Source of the DNA: Methylobacterium sp. 17Sr1-1
Lineage (GTDB): Bacteria > Pseudomonadota > Alphaproteobacteria > Rhizobiales > Beijerinckiaceae
Length of the DNA stretch: 64,000 bases
NCBI RefSeq assembly: GCF_003173775.1
Contig: NZ_CP029552.1
Location: 5,911,001-5,975,000, forward strand
Direction: 5' to 3'
Positions 1 through 8,671 of this stretch are shown here, one piece after another (the first letter of the stretch is position 1; every line of letters begins with the position of its first letter). Position numbers and translations under genes: made by a program. The notes under the pieces were generated by a model that made no database searches, was not told where the DNA came from, and worked only from the letters and a program-made list of their open reading frames with translations.

Positions 1-633
1 TCGAAGATCGCGCAGCTCGGCTACAGCCCGGCCCTCGACCGGATCACCGACACCACGACCCGGGTCGTCGCGAGCGTACCGATCTACGAGCCCGGCAGCC
101 TGCCGCGGATCGGCGAAGCCTCGGCGCTCGCGCGCCAGCGCGGCTACGAGGCGCAGGACAAGGAACTGGCGACGCTCACCGCGGCCCGCATCGCATTCGC
201 GCGGCGCCAGGCTACCGCCGAGCAATACGCCCAGCTGACGGCGCGGATCCGCGAACTGCGCGAGACGATGCGCGGCTTCGGCATCGAGCGGGCGGCGGGC
301 TTCCGCACCGTCCTCGACGAACTGAACATCCGCGGCGAGCTCGCCAATGCCGAGGTGGCGGCGGAAATCGTGCTGAACGAGCGCGACGGGCAGGCGCTCC
401 AGCTCGCCGCCGCGGCGGCGCTCCTCGACGCCGCGCCGGGTGGGTCGCCGGCGCGGCGGTTCGAGTCGGTCGCCCCGCCGCCGCCGCCGGCCCTGCGCCG
501 CTCGCTCGCGGCGGCGCCTGTCGAGGCTGTGCCGGTCCTGCGCGGGAGCGGCGCAGGGCCGGCGGCGGTGGGGGCGAGGGCGCTGCCAGCGCCGGTGCTG
601 CGGGTGTCGCGGGCGGAAGCCGGTTCCCGGTAG
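1..633 (+). CDS. TolC-family outer membrane efflux protein, C-terminal part (5' end outside window)
   Basis: The reading frame is open from base 1 to the TAG at 631-633, giving about 210 residues of a C-terminal half. It contains the TolC-like stretch ASVPIYEPGS followed by long Ala/Arg/Glu-rich helical heptads, the pattern of the second half of outer-membrane factors (strand S3/S4 entry, then coiled helices). The last 60 residues are a Pro/Ala-rich tail that probably lies in the periplasm. Such proteins form the trimeric outer-membrane exit duct of type I secretion. It converges on the exporter operon at 1118-5903, which carries the matching inner-membrane and adaptor parts, so it is probably the duct for that system. 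Family assignment is from sequence pattern only. Confidence 0.72.
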   Translation, partial: SKIAQLGYSPALDRITDTTTRVVASVPIYEPGSLPRIGEASALARQRGYEAQDKELATLTAARIAFARRQATAEQYAQLTARIRELRETMRGFGIERAAGFRTVLDELNIRGELANAEVAAEIVLNERDGQALQLAAAAALLDAAPGGSPARRFESVAPPPPPALRRSLAAAPVEAVPVLRGSGAGPAAVGARALPAPVLRVSRAEAGSR

Positions 634-752
634 AGTGCCGGGTCTCGGCGCGGGGGCCCTGGGTCGAGCTGACGGATGATCTCGAGCCGCACGCGGTACG
701 GCAGTGGTGGGCGATCGTCTCGAATGAGCGATGATTCAGTTTTCACCCCGCG

Positions 753-921
753 CCCTTTCCCGGACGACTGAAGCGATAGCGGAAGGAGATCCGGGATCCA
801 GCAGGAAACTTCGCGAAGCGTCCGTCTGTCTGCAACGGTGCAGTCAAGGAGCCGCTTCGCGGCACTTCTCTCCTGGATCCCGGATCTCCTTCCGCTGACG
901 CTTCAGTCGTCCGGGAAAGGG
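753..921. repeat. long inverted repeat (about 68-bp arms, about 32-bp loop)
   Basis: The left arm (753-820) starting CCCTTTCCCGGACGACTGAA is matched in reverse complement by the right arm (853-921) with only a few mismatches. As RNA it would fold into a very long stem. It lies between convergent genes and may act as a bidirectional transcription barrier or be a mobile palindromic element. No open frame or transposase is associated. Confidence 0.8.
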
Positions 922-999
922 GAGCCCTATGACAAACGTCCTCTTGCAAGCTCCGACCTGGATCATTGTCGGATGCCGTGCTCCAGCTGGATCGACACC

Positions 1000-1056
1000 C
1001 TCCGGCTCATGCTGGGTTCCGCTTGGAGGCCCCGGAATGACGCGGAGGGTGCCAGG
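1000..1056. repeat. dispersed palindromic extragenic repeat, GGCCCCGGAATGAC family
   Basis: It contains GGTTCCGCTTGGAGGCCCCGGAATGACGC-type sequence ending in GGGTGCCA. Related copies occur at 6390-6426 and, as an inverted pair, at 43571-43720 in this window. All copies are intergenic. Confidence 0.65.
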
Positions 1057-1117
1057 TCCGTTTGGGGGAAGCGTCTTCTCGATCCGCCGCTCACCTCGCA
1101 CCGAGGCACGCCGCCCC

Positions 1118-3271
1118 TCACGCCGCCTCCGGCACCGGCGCTCCGGGCTTCTCCGGCGGGCGCGGATCCTCCGTCAGCCGCCCGTTCTCGATCCGGAAGA
1201 CCCGGTCGACCTGATCGAGCAGGCGCTCGGAGTGGGTGATGAACACCTTGGCGGCCTTCACGCCCTTCAGGCTCTCGACGAGGGCGACCTCCGTCGCCGG
1301 GTCGAGATTCGCCGTCACCTCGTCGAGGAGCATCAGCCGCGGCCGGCGGCAGATCGCGCGGGCGAGCAGCAGGCGGCGGCGCTGGCCGGTGGAGAGCACG
1401 CTGCCCTCCTCCGAGACGTGGGTGGCGTAGCCCTGGGGCAGCCGCTCGATCTCCTCGCGCAAGCCGACCCGGACCAGGGCCGCCTCCATCTCGGCGTGGG
1501 ACACGGCGGGATCGAACAGCGACAGGTTGTCGGCCACGGTGCCGGCGAAGAGCCCGTCATCGGCGAAGACGACCCCGAGATTGGCCCGGTACTCGCGCTT
1601 GCCGAACTGGCTCAACGGCGCGCCGTCGACCATGACCGAGCCGGCGGCGGGCTCGGTGAGGCTGGCGAGGATCCGCATCAGCGACGACTTGCCCGAGCCC
1701 GAGGCGCCGACGATCGCGATCGTCTCGCAGCGGCCGACATCGATGGTGAGGGAGGCCCCCGTCAGGATCGGCTCGTCGCCGCGGCCGAACCGGATCGTGA
1801 CGTTGTCGACCCGCACCTCCTTGCGGATCGACCGGTGGACCATCGCCTCGTGCAGGCCCTCCTCCGGCGCCTGGCCGATCACGTCGTCGAGGCGGGCGAC
1901 GTGGACCTTGAGGGCGGCGAGCTGGAGCAGGCTCGAGGTCAGGTGGTTGACCCGGTCGAAGAAGTCGGTGCGCAGGGCGATGAAGGCGTAGAGCGTGCCG
2001 ATCGTCAGCGTGTTCTTGATGACGCCGGTGATACCGAGATAGAGCGTCGCCACGGTGCTCACCGCGATGACGACGTGCATCAGGAACTCGGCGTCGAGCC
2101 CGGCCTTCTTCGCCCGGAAGTCGAGATTGGCGAAGCGCGCGAAGCTCTCGAACCAGTTCATGGCGAAGAGCTCGGTGCTGTTGTGGGCCTTCAGGCTGCC
2201 GATGCGCTGCAACCCGTCGATCAGGCTCGCCTGCTCCTGCGAGCGCGCCTCGAGCGAGCCGGCGGTGGCGCGGTCCAGCGTCGGGAAGGTGACGAAGCGC
2301 ATCGCCAGCACCGCGGCCAGCGTCGCCAGCGTGATCGACGCCATGACGGGCGAGTAATAGACCATCAGCCCGACGAGCAGGAACGACGTGCCGATATCGG
2401 CGAACGACGTCACCAGGCCTCCGACCATGAAGGTGCGGATCGTGTCGATCGACTGGATCCGGGTCACGAAGTCGCCCGGATGGCGCAATTCGAAGTAGCT
2501 CAGCGGCAGGCGCAGCGCGTGGCCGACGACGTTGCGGGTGAACTGGAGCTGGAGCAGCGTCGAGGCGCGCAAGGCGATGTAGCCGCGCAGCCACTGCCCG
2601 AACGCCTCGAACAGCATCATCAGGACCAGGCCGGCGGCCAGCATCTGCATCAGGTCGAGGTCGACCTGCGGGATCACCACGTCCAGCGCGATCTGGAGCA
2701 GCACCGGGGTGGTGAGGCCGAGGAGCGAGATCGCCACCGAGACCAGCGTGATCTGCCACACCGTGCCGCTCAAGCCCCGGGCGCTGCGCAGGATGTCGAA
2801 CAGCTTGAGCCGGTCGCCGACCTTGATCGCCCGAAAGTCCATCCGTGGCGCGAATTCGAGCACGACGCCGCCGAACAGCCGCTCCATGTCGGCGCGCTCG
2901 TAGACCCGCAGGCCGAATTCCGGATCCTGGACGTGGTACCGGCCGCGGGCGATCTTCTCCAGCACCACGAAGTGGTTGCCGCGCCAGTGCAGGATCGCCG
3001 GCAGGGCCACCTGATCCAGCTCGGTCACCCCGTCGAGGGCGTAGCCGCTGGCGTCGAGATCGAGGCTGTCGGCGACCTGCACGATGCTCGCGAGCGTCAT
3101 GCCGTTGCGCGACAGCGGAAACAGCGCCCGCAGATAGGCGAGGTCGATGTCGTGGCGGTGGTAATTCGCCACCATCGCCAGCGCCGCGAGCCCGCACTCG
3201 TTGGCCTCGTTCTGGAGGATCGAGCGCACCCGCCGCTTGCGCGTGAGCGCGCGCCTGAGCCAGTCGGTCAT
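1118..3271 (-). CDS. C39 peptidase-containing ABC exporter (bacteriocin/microcin processing and export)
   Basis: 717 residues in the CvaB/LagD/RaxB arrangement. An N-terminal C39 cysteine protease (about 15-140) has Cys26 in NEANECGLAAL, His100 in RGNHFVVL and Asp116 in QDPEFG, so the catalytic triad is complete. A six-helix membrane domain (about 160-440) follows, then an ATPase with Walker A GASGSGKSS, signature LSTGQ, Walker B LMLLDE and switch His in FITHS. The family cuts double-glycine leaders from small peptides and pumps the mature peptide out through HlyD and TolC partners. It lies 4 nt downstream of the HlyD-type gene and is the last gene of the operon whose first two genes encode GG-leader peptides, which are the obvious substrates. 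Confidence 0.93.
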   Translation of the reverse strand: MTDWLRRALTRKRRVRSILQNEANECGLAALAMVANYHRHDIDLAYLRALFPLSRNGMTLASIVQVADSLDLDASGYALDGVTELDQVALPAILHWRGNHFVVLEKIARGRYHVQDPEFGLRVYERADMERLFGGVVLEFAPRMDFRAIKVGDRLKLFDILRSARGLSGTVWQITLVSVAISLLGLTTPVLLQIALDVVIPQVDLDLMQMLAAGLVLMMLFEAFGQWLRGYIALRASTLLQLQFTRNVVGHALRLPLSYFELRHPGDFVTRIQSIDTIRTFMVGGLVTSFADIGTSFLLVGLMVYYSPVMASITLATLAAVLAMRFVTFPTLDRATAGSLEARSQEQASLIDGLQRIGSLKAHNSTELFAMNWFESFARFANLDFRAKKAGLDAEFLMHVVIAVSTVATLYLGITGVIKNTLTIGTLYAFIALRTDFFDRVNHLTSSLLQLAALKVHVARLDDVIGQAPEEGLHEAMVHRSIRKEVRVDNVTIRFGRGDEPILTGASLTIDVGRCETIAIVGASGSGKSSLMRILASLTEPAAGSVMVDGAPLSQFGKREYRANLGVVFADDGLFAGTVADNLSLFDPAVSHAEMEAALVRVGLREEIERLPQGYATHVSEEGSVLSTGQRRRLLLARAICRRPRLMLLDEVTANLDPATEVALVESLKGVKAAKVFITHSERLLDQVDRVFRIENGRLTEDPRPPEKPGAPVPEAA

Positions 3272-3275
3272 CGGA

Positions 3276-4553
3276 TCATCCTCTTCCGCGCATCGCCCGG
3301 ATCGGATCGAGCATCCAGTCGATCAACCGCCGCCGCTCGACCACGATGTCCGCCGAGAGGGTCGAGCCGATGCGGATCGGCTCGTCGGTGCCGTAGGCGC
3401 GCATGGTGCGCGAGTCGGGCCGCACCTCGACCCGGTAGACGGATTGGCGCGCGGCGGCCGCCGCCGCATCGCCCCCGCCCTCCTCGGCGGACGCCAGCAT
3501 CGGGTTGCGCAACGGGGTGCCGGAGATCACCGTGATCGTGCCCTTGGCAATGCCGAAGGTCTTGAACGGGAAGGCGTCGTATTTCAGCACCACCTCCTGG
3601 CCGACCTTGGCCAGCCCGATCGCGCGGGCCGGCACTTCGAGCACGACCAGCGGATCGGCCCGCGTGTCGCCGAGGATCGCCACCACCTGGTCGGCGGTGA
3701 CCGAATCGCCGGGCTGGACGTAGAGGCCGGCGACCTCGCCGTCGGTGGGGGCGACCACGTCGATGCGGGACTGGGCGCCGAGCGCGGTGATCTGCGCCTC
3801 GATCGCGCTCAATTCGTTGCGGGTGGCGGCGAGCTGGGCCGCCTTCTCGGTGTCGCCGGTGCGTTGCGCCCGCAGGCGCTCGGAGGTGCTCTGGCGCAAT
3901 TCGGCCCGGCGGGCGCGCAGTTCGGCGATCTGGCGGGCGTAGTCGAGGGCGGCGCGGCGCTGGCCGTTGAGGGTCTCGCGGGTGGCGTAGCCTTGGCGGA
4001 GATAGGCCTCGACGCGGGCGACCATCTCCTCCTGCTGGGCGAGACCCTCCTTGAGGGTGCGCTCCTGGTCGTCGAGGGCGCGCAGGACCGCCGCGACGTT
4101 GCGCTCGGTGTCGTCCCGGTCGCCGCGGGTCGAGTCGAGATAGGCCGAGAGGCGCGCCTGCTCGGCGGACAGGCTGGTGCGCCGCTCCTGCAGGCTGCGC
4201 AGGGTCGCCCCGACGGTCGAGACGCCGCCCGTCGTCTGCTCGCGCAGCTGCACCTGCATCAGGCGCTGGCCGCGGGCGACGGTGTCACCCTGCTTGACGG
4301 CGATCTCCCGGACGATGCCGGCGGCCTGGGCGTCGAGGCGGGTGAGGCCCGAGGCGGCCGAGACGTAGCCGCGCACCGCTTCGGACCGGGCGAGGCGGCC
4401 GAGGAAGAGGCTCGCGACGATGACGACGATGATGGCGCCGAAGAACCACGCCATCCAGACGCTGCCGCGGTCGTGCTGGAGGTGGACGCTGCCGGTGAGC
4501 CGCCGGCGCTGGAAACTGGCCTCCGCGGGAGGAGGCGCCGCGGGTTCGCTCAT
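3276..4553 (-). CDS. HlyD-family periplasmic adaptor of a peptide exporter
   Basis: 425 residues. One N-terminal membrane anchor (about 33-52, WMAWFFGAIIVVIVASLFLG) is followed by a lipoyl/barrel-sandwich half (about 65-100), a long coiled-coil hairpin rich in Arg/Glu/Gln (about 110-265), and the returning barrel (DVVAPTDGEVAGLYVQPGD). This is the colicin V secretion (CvaA-like) layout. It would bridge the C39 exporter and a TolC channel. It lies between the acyltransferase gene (21 nt) and the exporter gene (4 nt) on the same strand, consistent with one transcript. Confidence 0.92.
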   Translation of the reverse strand: MSEPAAPPPAEASFQRRRLTGSVHLQHDRGSVWMAWFFGAIIVVIVASLFLGRLARSEAVRGYVSAASGLTRLDAQAAGIVREIAVKQGDTVARGQRLMQVQLREQTTGGVSTVGATLRSLQERRTSLSAEQARLSAYLDSTRGDRDDTERNVAAVLRALDDQERTLKEGLAQQEEMVARVEAYLRQGYATRETLNGQRRAALDYARQIAELRARRAELRQSTSERLRAQRTGDTEKAAQLAATRNELSAIEAQITALGAQSRIDVVAPTDGEVAGLYVQPGDSVTADQVVAILGDTRADPLVVLEVPARAIGLAKVGQEVVLKYDAFPFKTFGIAKGTITVISGTPLRNPMLASAEEGGGDAAAAAARQSVYRVEVRPDSRTMRAYGTDEPIRIGSTLSADIVVERRRLIDWMLDPIRAMRGRG

Positions 4554-4574
4554 CGACCGTCCGCTCGCTGGACC

Positions 4575-5519
4575 TCACGCCACGAGGTCGCGCGGCGCCT
4601 CCCCGCCTGCCGGAGAGTTGTCCTGCACCGTCGCAGAGGAGGGTAAATATTCGGCGAGCAGCGGCCAGAGATGCCACTGCTCCGGTCGGGCCGCAATGGC
4701 GGCCTGGATGTGCCGGCGCATGATGGCGGCGACGTGCGCCCGCTCCTCGGACGCGGTCCCGCGCACCTCGAAGGGCCGGCCGAGGCCGATCGTGTCGCCG
4801 TGGTCGTCCATGGTGGTGGCGACCGGCACCACGGTCGCGCCGGTGAGCCGCGCCAGGGTGTCGGTGCCGAAGGCGAACCGGAAGGGCATCCCGAACATCG
4901 GCATCTCGGCCGGCGCCCCGTAGGACGGGTCGAGGTCGCAGAACACCACGATCACCGCACCCTTCTGGGCGAAGCGCACCGCGGACAGGAAATCGGCCCG
5001 CTGGCTGACATTGAGGAAGCGCACGTCGACGTCGACCTCGCGCAGGCGCTCGATCACCTCCGTCTCCATCGCCATGTCGTCGCGCTGGCGCAGGACCAGC
5101 ATCGGCCGGCCGGGGAAGTAGCGGGTCATCAGGGCGGCGAGGCCGAGCACGTAGGCGCCCATGTGGAGCGGCGCCAGGATCACCGGCCGGCCGGTGGCGG
5201 CGATGCGCTCCATCACCGCCGGATCGGCGACCCGCACCCGCGCGATGTCGCGCTGGATCGCCGCGATCGGGCGCCTGTGCAGGGCGCACCACTCGATCTC
5301 GGAGGCTACGTCGTGGTGGGCGGCCTCGCGCGACAGGCGCAGGGCCTCGCGGCGCGGCAGCCGCAGCACGCTCTCGAAGGTCGCCGCGAAGCCGTCGCCC
5401 TTGTCCCCGGTCAGGAGGCGGCGGCCCGTGACGAGGGCGCGCAGGGCGCGCCGTCGCCAGGTGAGCGGCAGGCTCGCCAGCCGCGCGGTGGTCCAGGGGA
5501 TGTGCGGGGCCGTCCTCAT
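4575..5519 (-). CDS. LpxL/HtrB-like lysophospholipid acyltransferase superfamily protein in peptide-export operon
   Basis: 314 residues. The order of motifs matches lipid A late acyltransferases: RPVILAPLHMGAY (His119 in the place of the HX4D/E motif), RFLNVSQRADF, CDLDPSYGAP and MFGMPFRFAFGTDTLARLTGATVVPV. The acidic residue expected five positions after His119 is Val124, so the canonical HX4(D/E) is incomplete, and there is no clear N-terminal membrane anchor. The gene follows the two GG-leader peptide genes by 53 nt and has a GAGG ribosome site. It may acylate the peptide, modify the producer's envelope for immunity, or be a lipid enzyme carried along; the sequence cannot decide. Superfamily membership is fairly sure, substrate unknown. 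Confidence 0.7.
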   Translation of the reverse strand: MRTAPHIPWTTARLASLPLTWRRRALRALVTGRRLLTGDKGDGFAATFESVLRLPRREALRLSREAAHHDVASEIEWCALHRRPIAAIQRDIARVRVADPAVMERIAATGRPVILAPLHMGAYVLGLAALMTRYFPGRPMLVLRQRDDMAMETEVIERLREVDVDVRFLNVSQRADFLSAVRFAQKGAVIVVFCDLDPSYGAPAEMPMFGMPFRFAFGTDTLARLTGATVVPVATTMDDHGDTIGLGRPFEVRGTASEERAHVAAIMRRHIQAAIAARPEQWHLWPLLAEYLPSSATVQDNSPAGGEAPRDLVA

Positions 5520-5572
5520 CAGACCTCAATCCCTCTCAAGCAAGTGCCCCGCACGGGTCCGCGGTCGGCGGC

Positions 5573-5710
5573 TCAGCAGTGCTTCTTGGACTTGCTGCTG
5601 CCGCAGGACGGAGCCGGCGGGGGGCAGGCGGGGGCCGGGGGCGGGCAGACCGGGGCGCAGATGGTGCCGCCGGCGACGGTGCCGAGAGTCTTCAGGTCGA
5701 GCTTCTTCAC
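5573..5710 (-). CDS. double-glycine leader Cys/Pro-rich peptide, copy B (45 aa)
   Basis: GTG start (5708-5710) with GGAGAG 6 nt upstream; TGA stop at 5573-5575. The leader VKKLDLKTLGTVAGG has hydrophobic residues at -12, -10, -7 and -4 before Gly-Gly, the pattern read by C39 peptidases. The predicted 30-residue core begins TICAPVC, continues with two heptads CPPPAPA and CPPPAPS, then CGSSKSKKHC. It has five Cys, nine Pro and a basic C-terminus ending in Cys. The first 99 nt from the stop-codon end, covering the whole core, are identical to copy A at 5766. It is below usual gene-finding length, but the duplication, ribosome site, leader and exporter context support it strongly. Function unknown: microcin, metal-binding peptide or signal are all possible. 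Confidence 0.88.
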   Translation of the reverse strand: MKKLDLKTLGTVAGGTICAPVCPPPAPACPPPAPSCGSSKSKKHC

Positions 5711-5765
5711 GATGGTCTCTCCTGTCTGTCTTTGGATGGTTGAAGTCGGGCTGACGCGGGAGCGA

Positions 5766-5903
5766 TCAGCAGTGCTTCTTGGACTTGCTGCTGCCGCAGG
5801 ACGGAGCCGGCGGGGGGCAGGCGGGGGCCGGGGGCGGGCAGACCGGGGCGCAGATGGTGCCGCCAGCGATGGTGCCGAGAGTCTTCAGGTCGAGAGTCTT
5901 CAT
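5766..5903 (-). CDS. double-glycine leader Cys/Pro-rich peptide, copy A (45 aa)
   Basis: ATG start at 5901-5903 with GAGGA upstream; TGA at 5766-5768. The peptide MKTLDLKTLGTIAGG plus core is identical to copy B except at three leader positions (Thr3/Lys3, Ile13/Val13 and the start codon). The frame stays open upstream to 5999, but the longer form would bury the leader and lacks a ribosome site, so the short start is used. It is the first gene of the operon, 55 nt upstream of copy B. Cleavage after Gly15 by the C39 exporter at 1118-3271 is predicted. The five Cys (18, 22, 29, 36, 45) could form disulfides, bind metal or be modified. Confidence 0.88.
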   Translation of the reverse strand: MKTLDLKTLGTIAGGTICAPVCPPPAPACPPPAPSCGSSKSKKHC

Positions 5904-6533
5904 CGGGGCTGTCCTCAAGTCCGGGGCTGGTTTCTTGCCCCGTCCGCAGTCTTGAGATGCCAGATGTTTCAAAACGTGTCGAGACGTGCAGGCGAACACT
6001 TGACGGTTCGTTAACTAAGGCGCTTCCGGAAAGCGGATCGCCGACAAAGACTTACGCCGGGGCTGTCGACATTGCGTAGGTAGTTTCGTTGGGGAAGGCC
6101 TGTGCATGACGGGCCGGCGAAGGCCCTGTAACCACTGCGGTAGGACGGCATGATTGCTTGATGACACTCCCGGAGAGTGTCTTGACCGGGAGATGCGGTG
6201 TCGGGGAACGATCCTGCTCTCGGCGCCGATTCCAGCGATGCCGGACGGTGACTGCGATCTTCGCCAGGATGCCGACTGGAGCGCTTCAAGGACCGCGGAC
6301 GGAGCAACCCAGTCCACTCTGCCTCGAAGATGAGGGAAGTTGGATTCGTCCCGTTCGAGGTGTGGCGTCAGTCGAGATTCTACTCTCGCGTCATCCCGGG
6401 TTCCGCTGTCGCGGCCCCGGGATGACGATGGAGGATGGGGGCTCGGCCGGTGACCTCGAACAGGCTCCGAGGCGCGAGCGACGGATCCTCGAACGTCCGG
6501 ACCCGCTGCGCGGCGATGTCCCGCGCGGACGCG
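5904..6533. other. intergenic region upstream of the peptide operon
   Basis: About 630 bp with lower GC than its surroundings between 5930 and 6200. It must hold the promoter of the minus-strand peptide operon and the 3' end of the ornithine cyclodeaminase transcript. I see a small hairpin GACACTC-CCGGA-GAGTGTC near 6163-6181 and a dispersed repeat at 6390-6426. Open frames here resemble no family I know. No promoter element could be assigned with confidence. Confidence 0.5.
6390..6426. repeat. short palindromic extragenic repeat, CCGGGATGAC family
   Basis: GTCATCCCGG at 6390-6399 is matched by CCGGGATGAC at 6417-6426 with TTCCGCTGTCGCGGCC-type sequence between. Related to the copies near 1000-1056 and 43571-43720. 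Confidence 0.65.
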
Positions 6534-7586
6534 TCAGGCGACGAGGCGCGGCGGCTCCGCCCGCAGCAGCATGCCGAAGAGGTCGCGCGGATCGTCCGGA
6601 TCGGCCAGGAGGTCGAGGTTCTCGTAGTAGGGGTGCGCGGCCAGGAGGTCTCGCACGGTGCGAAGCGCGGAAAAGTCCTCGATCGCGAAGCCGACGGAGT
6701 CGAACACCGTGACCTCGCGGGCATCGCGGCGGCCGGGCGCGAGGCCGGCGAGGACCTGCCACAGCTCGGTCACCGGATGGTCCGGCGCCAGCTGCTGGAT
6801 CTCGCCCTCGATGCGGGTCTGCGGCTCGTACTCGACGAAGAGGGCGGCGCGGCGCAGGATGGCTGGCGCCAGCTCGGTCTTGCCCGGGCAGTCGCCGCCG
6901 ACGGCGTTGATGTGCACCCCCTCCCCGACCAGGTTGTCGCCGAGGATCACGGCGTTGCGCTTGTCCGCCGTCACGGTGGTGACGATGTCGGCCCCGCGCA
7001 CCGCCTCGGCGGTGCTGGCGCAGGCCGTGAGGTCGAAGCCGAAGCGCGCGAGGTTCCGCAGGCACTTGGCGGTCGCCGCCGGGTCGATGTCGTGGAGGCG
7101 CAAACGGTCGATCCCGAGGAGCGCCCGGAAGGCCAGGGCCTGGAACTCGGCCTGGGCGCCGTTGCCGATCAGCGCCAGGGTGCGCGCATCCGGCCGCGCG
7201 AGGGCTTGCGCCGCCAGCGCCGAGGTGGCGGCGGTGCGGAGCGCCGTCAGCAGGGTCATCTCGGTGATCAGCACCGGATAGCCGTTGCCGACATCGGCCA
7301 GCACCCCGAAGGCGGTGACGGTCTGGCGCCCGCCGGCGGCGTTCTTCGGGTGGCCGTTGACGTATTTGAAGCCGTAGGTGTGGCCGTCGCTCGTCGGCAT
7401 CAGCTCGATGACGCCGTCAGGGCTGTGGGCGGCGATCCGGGGCGTCTTGTGGAAGGCGTCCCAACGGGAAAAATCCTCCGCGATGGCGGCGGCGAGGCGG
7501 GCGAGCAGCGCCTCGATCCCGACCGCGTGGACGAGGCGCATCATGTTGTCGACACTGACGAAGGGGACGACGTTGAGGGCCGGCAT
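6534..7586 (-). CDS. ornithine cyclodeaminase
   Basis: 350 residues, normal for the family, which deaminates and cyclises L-ornithine to L-proline with tightly bound NAD. Visible marks are the substrate region ELMPTSDGHTYGFKYVNGHP, the NAD-binding ALIGNGAQAEFQ (about 190) and INAVGGDCPGKTEL with the catalytic Asp region. The ATG at 7584-7586 directly abuts the arginase TAG stop (no gap), so the two are translated as a unit: arginine to ornithine plus urea, then ornithine to proline and ammonia. A related mu-crystallin fold enzyme is possible, but the neighbour makes ornithine the likely substrate. Confidence 0.92.
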   Translation of the reverse strand: MPALNVVPFVSVDNMMRLVHAVGIEALLARLAAAIAEDFSRWDAFHKTPRIAAHSPDGVIELMPTSDGHTYGFKYVNGHPKNAAGGRQTVTAFGVLADVGNGYPVLITEMTLLTALRTAATSALAAQALARPDARTLALIGNGAQAEFQALAFRALLGIDRLRLHDIDPAATAKCLRNLARFGFDLTACASTAEAVRGADIVTTVTADKRNAVILGDNLVGEGVHINAVGGDCPGKTELAPAILRRAALFVEYEPQTRIEGEIQQLAPDHPVTELWQVLAGLAPGRRDAREVTVFDSVGFAIEDFSALRTVRDLLAAHPYYENLDLLADPDDPRDLFGMLLRAEPPRLVA

Positions 7587-8543
7587 CTAGAAGCTCCGTG
7601 TCGGTCGGTCGAGGATGCGGCGGCCGAAGAGGCTGGCGGCGAGGTCCGTCATCAGCAGGGCGGTGCGGCCGCGCTCGTCGAGGAAGGGGTTGAGCTCCAC
7701 GAGGTCGAGGCTGCGCACCAACCCGGAATCGTGCAGCAGCTCCATGATCAGGTGGGCCTCCCGGAAGGTGGCCCCGCCCGGCACGGTGGTGCCGACCCCA
7801 GGCGCGATGCCGGGATCGAGGAAATCGACGTCGAGGCTGACGTGGAGCAGGCCCTCCGCCGCGCTCACCTCGCGCAGGAAGTCGCGCAAGGGGGCGACGA
7901 TCCCGGTCTCGTCGATGTCGCGCATGTCGTGGACCCGGGCACCGCTCTCGGCGAGCGCCCCGCGCTCCGCCGGATCGACGCTGCGCAGGCCGAACATGCA
8001 GATCCTGGCCGGATCGAGGGCGGCTTTCAGCGGCGGGAAGTAGCCGGAGAACCCCGGCCTGCCGGTGAGGTAGGCCAGCGGCACGCCGTGCAGGTTGCCG
8101 CTCGTCGTCGTGTCGAGGGTGTGGAGGTCGGCATGGGCATCGAGCCAGAGCAGGAACAGCGGCCGTCCCTCCGCGTCCGCCCGCCGCGCCATGCCCGCCA
8201 CGGTGCCGGCCGACAGGCTGTGGTCGCCGCCGAGGAAGATCGGCCGCGCCTCGGCGCTGTGCCGGAAGGCGGCCTCGGTCAGCGCCAGCGTCCAGCCCGC
8301 CGTCTCGGCGAGGTGGTGGATCGCCCGGTTCGGGTGGGCTGAGCTCGCGAAGGGGAGCGGCGCGACCGCGCCGGCATCCTCGACCGGCAGGCCGAGATCG
8401 CGGATCGCCTCGACGAGGCCCGCCGCCCGGTAGGCGCTCGGCCCCATGTCGCAGCCGAGCCGGTCGGTGCCAGACTGCACCGGCGCCCCGACCAGGACGC
8501 ACCTCTCAGGATGTGTGCCCGCCACTCGATGTCTTGCCGCCAC
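7587..8543 (-). CDS. rocF: arginase
   Basis: About 318 residues from the GTG at 8541-8543, chosen because GGGAG lies about 8 nt upstream; a nearer GTG at 8523-8525 would give 312 residues, and an open frame continues to 8648 but runs under the divergent regulator's promoter. Manganese-site motifs are present: GGDHSLSAG, LDAHADLHT and SLDVDFLDPG, with ELNP near the C-terminus. It hydrolyses arginine to ornithine and urea in the cytosol. It is first in the operon with ornithine cyclodeaminase and diverges from an Lrp/AsnC gene, as is usual for amino-acid-induced arginine catabolism. Confidence 0.94.
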   Translation of the reverse strand: MAARHRVAGTHPERCVLVGAPVQSGTDRLGCDMGPSAYRAAGLVEAIRDLGLPVEDAGAVAPLPFASSAHPNRAIHHLAETAGWTLALTEAAFRHSAEARPIFLGGDHSLSAGTVAGMARRADAEGRPLFLLWLDAHADLHTLDTTTSGNLHGVPLAYLTGRPGFSGYFPPLKAALDPARICMFGLRSVDPAERGALAESGARVHDMRDIDETGIVAPLRDFLREVSAAEGLLHVSLDVDFLDPGIAPGVGTTVPGGATFREAHLIMELLHDSGLVRSLDLVELNPFLDERGRTALLMTDLAASLFGRRILDRPTRSF

Positions 8544-8671
8544 CCGCCCGCTCCCGTCTCCCGAGCAGGCTCGACGGTAGCGTGCGGCCGCGTCACTCTG
8601 AACACGGGAAGGTGGTCGATTTTCGAGCCGGATCGCACAGTCTGGCAAGCATCACTGCGCAGAGTGTCGAC

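Follow-up and report, generated by a model that had tools for sequence, protein, structure and literature searches.

Why an LpxL-like acyltransferase should be encoded between genes for tiny double-glycine peptides and the genes of a C39 peptide exporter is the question raised by a locus at the start of a 64,000-nucleotide stretch of DNA from Methylobacterium sp. 17Sr1-1 (the window, positions 5911001-5975000 of the 6.54-Mb chromosome). On the minus strand, two 45-aa peptide genes are followed by the acyltransferase gene (LPLAT), a HlyD-type adaptor gene and a C39-ABC exporter gene, and a TolC-type gene faces them, a layout that was found as the first-pass annotation had described it. We consider it probable that the LPLAT acylates the tail of the peptides, that the C39 domain then removes the leader, and that a type I channel exports the lipopeptide. 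Acylation followed by export is the simplest reading because of the co-occurrence of the genes, their order, the constant peptide tail and the presence of dedicated acyl-making genes in relatives.

An LPLAT orthologue is present in 27 of 111 genus-group genomes (E <= 1e-20), and an orthologue of the C39 exporter (49-100% identity) in exactly the same 27, with the next-best C39 proteins among the matches listed reaching at most 35% identity. A peptide profile matches all 27 LPLAT genomes and, in the 84 LPLAT-free genomes, gives a single weak match, with E 0.007 and within a frame of 453 aa; since loci of this kind went into the profile, what informs is how seldom it matches elsewhere. The order and orientation LPLAT-HlyD-C39 on one strand is constant at 27 of 27 loci (26 fetched plus the window), the LPLAT gene directly follows the peptide array in the window and at most loci, and a TolC gene lies inside the fetched stretch at 23 of 27; in genome G059 (genomes and loci are denoted here by G and L numbers) a TolC-like gene is located at an unlinked acyl-gene locus. 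The leader pattern recovers peptides at 25 of the 27 loci, one contig ending at the LPLAT gene and one array containing an N run, and the profile search recovers peptides in both genomes that the pattern missed. A scan of genome contigs with one short pattern yielded 21 loci. With the best five candidates per genome scored, an alignment-based LPLAT search found at least 4 of 397 genomes across the order, the window genome included, and 0 of 384 in other genomes of the class, a lower bound. The recurrence of the gene set in 27 of 111 genomes is more than chance, and the double-glycine export system with an acyltransferase partner that had been proposed from the window alone is supported by the co-occurrence in these 27.

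Four exporter residues, Q20, C26, H100 and D116, which provide the oxyanion Gln and the catalytic Cys, His and Asp, are invariant in 27 orthologues, so that the Cys-His-Asp triad read from the window is indeed complete. The best solved match of the exporter is HlyB; the protein lies far under the NCBIfam bacteriocin cut-offs and also below that of TIGR03796 (NHLP/NHLM; 439.4 bits vs a cut-off of 853.3). Both window peptides have the leader pattern reported earlier, with L at -12, L at -7, V or I at -4 and GG at -2/-1. On the leader and the intact C39 residues the window set can be assigned to the C39 double-glycine export systems, cleavage and secretion being predicted from sequence.

The two window peptides share the mature sequence TICAPVCPPPAPACPPPAPSCGSSKSKKHC, 30 residues with a C(PPPAP)AC(PPPAP)SC arrangement, and their leaders differ at two positions; purine-rich AGGA stretches precede both starts and are plausible ribosome sites. 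Neither peptide has a Pfam or NCBIfam match. From the fetched loci 63 peptides (57 unique) were gathered by the leader pattern, the tail lying outside that pattern, and 34 of the 63 were aligned: M1, G14 and G15 are invariant, and L4 and L9 are conserved at 90% or more. Across orthologous systems the 15-aa leader and a short tail remain constant and the cores differ. All 57 unique peptides have a Lys in the last eight residues and a Ser or Cys in the last three, with Lys accounting for 138 of 456 tail residues vs 49 of 1233 in the rest of the mature part, which is 20-43 residues long. Close relatives of the window have Cys/Pro cores of variable spacing, some with Gly/Ser/Val stretches; the cores of G135, G028 and G128 are shorter and end in KSKKC; those of G035, G140, G036, G061, L109 and L115 are short, mainly Cys/Pro, and end in CS. 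Besides Cys/Pro, the orthologous systems include His/Lys/Gly, glycine-zipper-like and Asn/Gly kinds: G059, G047, G136 and G049 have repeated-His cores, G059 and G047 additionally Asn/Gly cores, and G064, G017 and G156 Gly/Leu/Val cores. The Cys/Pro core, initially taken to define the family, was therefore rejected as a defining feature, since a similar leader, LPLAT and exporter serve unrelated cores. The first-pass annotation had also held that an exporter found with unrelated substrates would speak against its proposal; such variety does occur, inside the orthologous system and confined to the core, with leader and tail constant.

Arrays contain one to six tandem copies, and the presence of up to six near-identical ones suggests a product made in bulk or displayed at the surface, and not a potent toxin. 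Among 41 best-partner pairs, the pooled synonymous (pS) and nonsynonymous (pN) proportions are 0.230 and 0.091, with pS/pN of 0.164/0.059 in the leader and 0.265/0.108 in the mature part; these are uncorrected, non-independent proportions from pairs chosen at 70% identity or more, a choice that favours low pN. pN exceeds pS in four of the 41 pairs (three G140-G036, one G135-G028) and equals it in one. Overall, the peptide frames show purifying selection, the absence of which the first-pass annotation had named as a reason to drop its proposal. Extra peptide copies are also observed off the exporter locus in at least six window-clade genomes (G041, G024, G054, G131, G119 and G144). At three off-locus places no LPLAT or HlyD match was found, and the C39 matches were of ABC-ATPase level (about 31%). 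Orphan peptides at L085 5992-6135, L086 5989-6132 and L087 5998-6141, likewise off the exporter locus, read GG followed directly by CC(L/K)PACPPPCPPPAP(A/V)CPPPA(P/H)TCGS(A/V)KS..C, and open reading frames at two of the orphan-peptide stretches resemble, by eye, amidohydrolase and transporter genes.

By family profile and by its predicted structure, which is close to PatA and LpxM, the LPLAT is placed in the LpxL/LpxM/PatA superfamily. In an alignment of 63 rows (the window plus 62 of 79 database clusters; a second alignment holds 19 of the 27 genus sequences), H119 and D195 are present in every row and D148 is likewise invariant. The acid of the HX4D/E motif is replaced throughout, with D or E at His+5 in 0 of 63 rows and P in 29, V in 28, A in 3 and S in 3. 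The H119-D195 spacing is 76 residues vs 74 for H126-E200 of PatA. Excerpts of the PatA report state that D131A retains 37% activity and that H126A and E200A are dead (PMC4792965), and the excerpted VexE report describes a Tyr at the HX4D acid position of an enzyme that is still active via its His and an Asp equivalent to E200 (PMC9597891). Because of these two precedents, catalysis can be reconciled with the missing HX4D acid, and we did not accept that the LPLAT is dead on that account; by analogy with PatA and VexE, its His and later invariant Asp are candidate catalytic residues. Among the matches listed, the named relatives of the window LPLAT include Methylobacterium proteins of M. currus (89%), M. 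frigidaeris (89%) and M. aquaticum (88%), a further one has 92% identity, and source names are of the kinds 'LpxL/LpxP family acyltransferase', 'lysophospholipid acyltransferase family protein', 'hypothetical protein', and 'lauroyl' or 'phosphatidylinositol dimannoside acyltransferase', none naming a peptide role. A viral carrier of the enzyme was also considered, and a single scan that used the window LPLAT yielded no relative.

Genes expected to make an acyl chain accompany the LPLAT in a subset of relatives. On a Rhizobiales contig (L109), genes for an acyl carrier protein (ACP) and a ketosynthase form a single run with LPLAT, HlyD and C39, with a double-glycine peptide (tail GSKCS) behind on the opposite strand; from sequence, the ACP retains the DS motif, and the ketosynthase its Cys and two His. 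At L115 (G317, from another family of the order), ACP and ketosynthase genes lie beside the C39 gene together with two double-glycine peptides, an aminotransferase gene and a MaoC-like frame (45%). A Rhizobium sp. SSA_523 plasmid locus contains ACP, ketosynthase, aminotransferase, TolC, LPLAT, HlyD and C39 genes, and a looser pattern recovered its double-glycine peptide, which ends in SSKCS. At L079-L082 and L084 (Methylobacterium/Methylorubrum), ACP and ketosynthase genes with an adjoining MaoC gene are divergent from the peptides. An orthologue of the ketosynthase (64% identity or more) is found in 11 of 27 LPLAT genomes vs 0 of 84 others (Fisher P 3e-8, kinship ignored), and one of the MaoC (60% or more) in 9 of 27 vs 0 of 84 (Fisher P 9e-7, again ignoring kinship). 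The ACP-ketosynthase pair is unlinked in five of the 11 (G128, G135, G028, G047 and G059), on another contig or 1.6 Mb off, and within the genus such unlinked genes occur in LPLAT genomes only. This co-distribution suggests that the LPLAT is catalytic, and it strengthens the earlier remark that the peptide is possibly lipid-modified, acylation itself staying inferred. An aminotransferase gene at an LPLAT locus was observed three times (L115 8108-9484; L083 8215-9588 in G061; L125 3853-5193 on the Rhizobium plasmid), the other two copies being 83% and 75% identical to that of L115; in that subclade the enzyme could add an amino group to the acyl chain, or it could be unrelated.

In the system that we propose, one or several tandem gene copies would encode precursors whose leader is of the double-glycine kind and whose Lys/Ser/Cys tail is constant. 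The membrane-associated LPLAT would move an acyl chain from an ACP onto the tail, at Lys or at a neighbouring Ser or Cys. In relatives the chain may come from the dedicated ACP and ketosynthase, often with MaoC; the window clade is without the ketosynthase, so there the chain would need another ACP, probably the general one. Cleavage after GG by the C39 domain would follow, and the ABC-HlyD-TolC channel would carry out the lipopeptide, whose lipid could keep an exchangeable core at the cell surface or in membranes.

Several observations weigh against this proposal. Of the 27 LPLAT genomes, 16 lack the ketosynthase, among them all 13 of the window clade. A special acyl chain is therefore no general feature, and this absence is the main fact against such a chain in the window itself. 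No ketosynthase of this kind was found above threshold elsewhere in the window genome, and a 43% match in G012 was taken as generic. The window genome does encode a generic MaoC (49%), which was rejected as the missing partner because LPLAT-free genomes carry it too; at L109 and at the Rhizobium locus no MaoC was found. In an LPLAT tree of 28 rows, with L109 and L115 included and the two-frame G036 copy left out, the loci with linked ketosynthase form the deepest branches under a midpoint root drawn for display only, and the absence in the window clade of 13 reads as a loss. D195 is paired with PatA E200 by spacing alone; the LPLAT-PatA sequence match (E 0.54) is not significant, and the LPLAT lies far under every NCBIfam cut-off listed. 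In G036 the LPLAT is broken into two frames (L084 6998-7802), through either assembly error or decay, beside an open exporter frame. To our knowledge no LpxL/PatA-fold enzyme acylates a peptide, and we infer the acylated product from the genes, as we do the acyl site, the donor, the side of the membrane and the role of the product. According to the excerpted VexE report (PMC9597891), the enzymes of this fold named there acylate sugars or lipids, LpxM, PatA and VexE having glycolipids or glycolipid precursors as acceptors.

That substrate record favours the best-surviving alternative, which we regard as rather unlikely, that the LPLAT, together with any ACP, ketosynthase and MaoC, acts on a lipid of the envelope and the peptides are exported unmodified, the lipid serving either to protect the producer membrane or as something required by the exporter or the peptide. 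The rhizobial very-long-chain lipid A cluster likewise combines ACP, ketosynthase, dehydratase and an LpxL-type enzyme, which counts for this alternative. A protective role is compatible, too, with a scan for membrane-type immunity frames that covered two stretches between genes at the window locus (soluble or unlinked immunity lying outside its scope), in which all 17 frames, the two peptides included, stayed below an 18-residue Kyte-Doolittle mean of 1.6, the top value being 1.54. An envelope substrate is harder to reconcile with the presence of the LPLAT beside peptides and exporter in all 27 genomes, its usual position directly after the array, and a tail that stays constant despite unrelated cores. 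The window genome, moreover, has another, stronger PF03279 protein for lipid A (132.6 bits), and the ACP of L109 fits general ACP models (51.3 bits) better than PRK06508 (31.7 bits), which we take to be AcpXL.

We consider it improbable that the peptides are unmodified class II-type microcins or bacteriocins, or a contact-dependent system of the Cdz kind, with the LPLAT as a non-catalytic chaperone or export accessory. The leader, intact C39 site, HlyD and TolC would all fit, as would the loss of the HX4D acid in all 63 rows, and the glycine-zipper-like cores of some relatives recall the Caulobacter Cdz proteins as described in excerpts of PMC5380434. The invariance of H119 and D195 and the co-distributed ACP, ketosynthase and MaoC genes point instead to a catalytic LPLAT; the small hydrophobic immunity frame that such a system would lead one to expect was not found in the two intergenic stretches, and up to six near-identical tandem copies are likewise at odds with it. 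Highly improbable is the reading of the peptides as secreted metal binders that the lipid or the LPLAT merely positions, which the Cys/Pro cores of the window clade and the repeated-His cores would suit, since cores without repeated Cys or His occur in G064, G017, G156, four G059 copies and one G047 copy, and the conserved set showed no obvious gene for metal uptake, for which no aimed search was made.

The features of the window locus are collected in the table. The TolC gene is cut by the window edge at base 1; its whole frame (491 aa) corresponds to L089 5158-6630. The inverted repeat is possibly a terminator or a palindromic repeat. The conserved DNA upstream of the array is probably a promoter or 5' untranslated region, judging from its alignment, and with no Rfam family above gathering score in 5880-6540, a known RNA family upstream of the peptides was set aside. 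Arginase and ornithine cyclodeaminase genes (6534-8648, minus strand), which could feed proline, were rejected as members of the system because the 11 loci (of 27) at which they adjoin the array all belong to the window clade; two further window-clade loci end at contig ends.

Table. Features of the peptide export locus, in window coordinates
Feature	Position	Strand	Details
TolC-type outer-membrane channel gene, 3' part	1..633	+	PF02321 32.3 bits
52-nt inverted repeat	arms 753-804 and 870-921, 65 nt apart		94% complementary; between convergent TolC and exporter genes
C39 peptidase-ABC exporter, 717 aa	1118..3271	-	PF03412 112.8 bits, PF00664, PF00005
HlyD-type periplasmic adaptor, 425 aa	3276..4553	-	PF13437 49.2 bits
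LPLAT, LpxL/PatA-fold acyltransferase, 314 aa	4575..5519	-	PF03279 44.4 bits (cut-off 22.3); H119/D195 invariant
Precursor peptide 1, 45 aa, GTG start	5573..5710	-	leader MKKLDLKTLGTVAGG, mature 30 aa TICAPVCPPPAPACPPPAPSCGSSKSKKHC
Precursor peptide 2, 45 aa, ATG start	5766..5903	-	leader MKTLDLKTLGTIAGG, mature 30 aa as peptide 1
Conserved DNA upstream of peptide array, about 220 nt	5904..6123	-	alignment of 10 window-clade loci, dense invariant blocks

If the LPLAT does acylate the peptides, the LpxL/PatA family would gain a peptide acceptor, and ribosomal peptides would have a path to lipidation that bears no relation to GNAT enzymes or to polyketide hybrids. The 27 genomes of the genus make a convenient collection, alike in leader, tail and enzyme but with the core naturally swapped, so that tail recognition and lipopeptide engineering are directly testable, and an LPLAT gene beside tiny double-glycine genes could serve as a marker in C39 annotation for proteins mostly named lipid A acyltransferase or hypothetical. 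We advance tentatively, as possible but doubtful, the wider view of a modular surface-lipopeptide system in which a constant leader and lipidation tail enclose exchangeable low-complexity cores (Cys/Pro rods, His/Lys/Gly, glycine-zipper-like, Asn/Gly). Its LPLAT would be the first peptide acyltransferase of the LpxL/PatA type, ancestrally supplied by a dedicated ACP-ketosynthase pair, commonly joined by a hydratase and, within one subclade, by an aminotransferase, and its lipid anchoring would lie outside the Lgt/Lsp/Lol lipoprotein pathway.

Compared with known systems, the parts are of known kinds and their combination appears new; among the matches listed, the open-access literature searched gave no account of an LpxL-type enzyme paired with a C39 peptide exporter. 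The excerpted report on VexE, an LPLAT-family beta-hydroxyacyltransferase of the Vi-antigen anchor with acyl-ACP as donor, describes a similar fold near PatA and LpxM, with the HX4D acid replaced and a His and distant Asp retained (PMC9597891). VexE differs in acting on UDP-GlcNAc and in having a TPR domain, as stated in those excerpts, whereas the partner genes here are peptides and a peptide exporter. The Caulobacter Cdz system shares alphaproteobacterial type I export of small proteins, and its glycine zippers resemble cores of some relatives, but the excerpted text describes a CdzI immunity protein and substrates of 84 and 86 aa, and contains no occurrence of 'acyltransferase' (PMC5380434). 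With C39 exporters in general (class II bacteriocin, microcin, ComA/PCAT1), the system shares the leader, the Cys-His-Asp site, the ABC core, HlyD and TolC; it differs in its LPLAT partner at 27 of 27 loci, its exchangeable cores, the immunity frame not seen in the window intergenic stretches, and window proteins far under the NCBIfam bacteriocin and NHLM cut-offs.

Lipidated ribosomally synthesized and post-translationally modified peptides of the GNAT type include the selidamides, nostolysamides and goadvionins. These and the lipolanthines resemble the proposed product in being ribosomal peptides with an acyl chain, which in the nostolysamides is placed on Lys side chains, according to excerpts of PMC13060382. 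The system described here differs from them in the acyltransferase fold and in C39 secretion, and a Pfam scan of eight window proteins found no GNAT, lanthipeptide-synthetase or polyketide synthase domain. The closest parallel in logic is the RTX-type HlyC-HlyA-HlyB-HlyD system of acylation and type I export, in which an acyl-ACP-using acyltransferase is likewise found beside the protein to be exported and an ABC-HlyD-TolC pump. The acyltransferase there, HlyC, has a GNAT fold and acts on a large RTX protein, and the C39 domain of HlyB is degenerate, whereas the window enzyme is of the LpxL/PatA fold, mature peptides have 20-43 residues and the C39 site is intact. By this analogy, the proposed system would most likely represent the HlyC-HlyA logic carried out with an unrelated acyltransferase.

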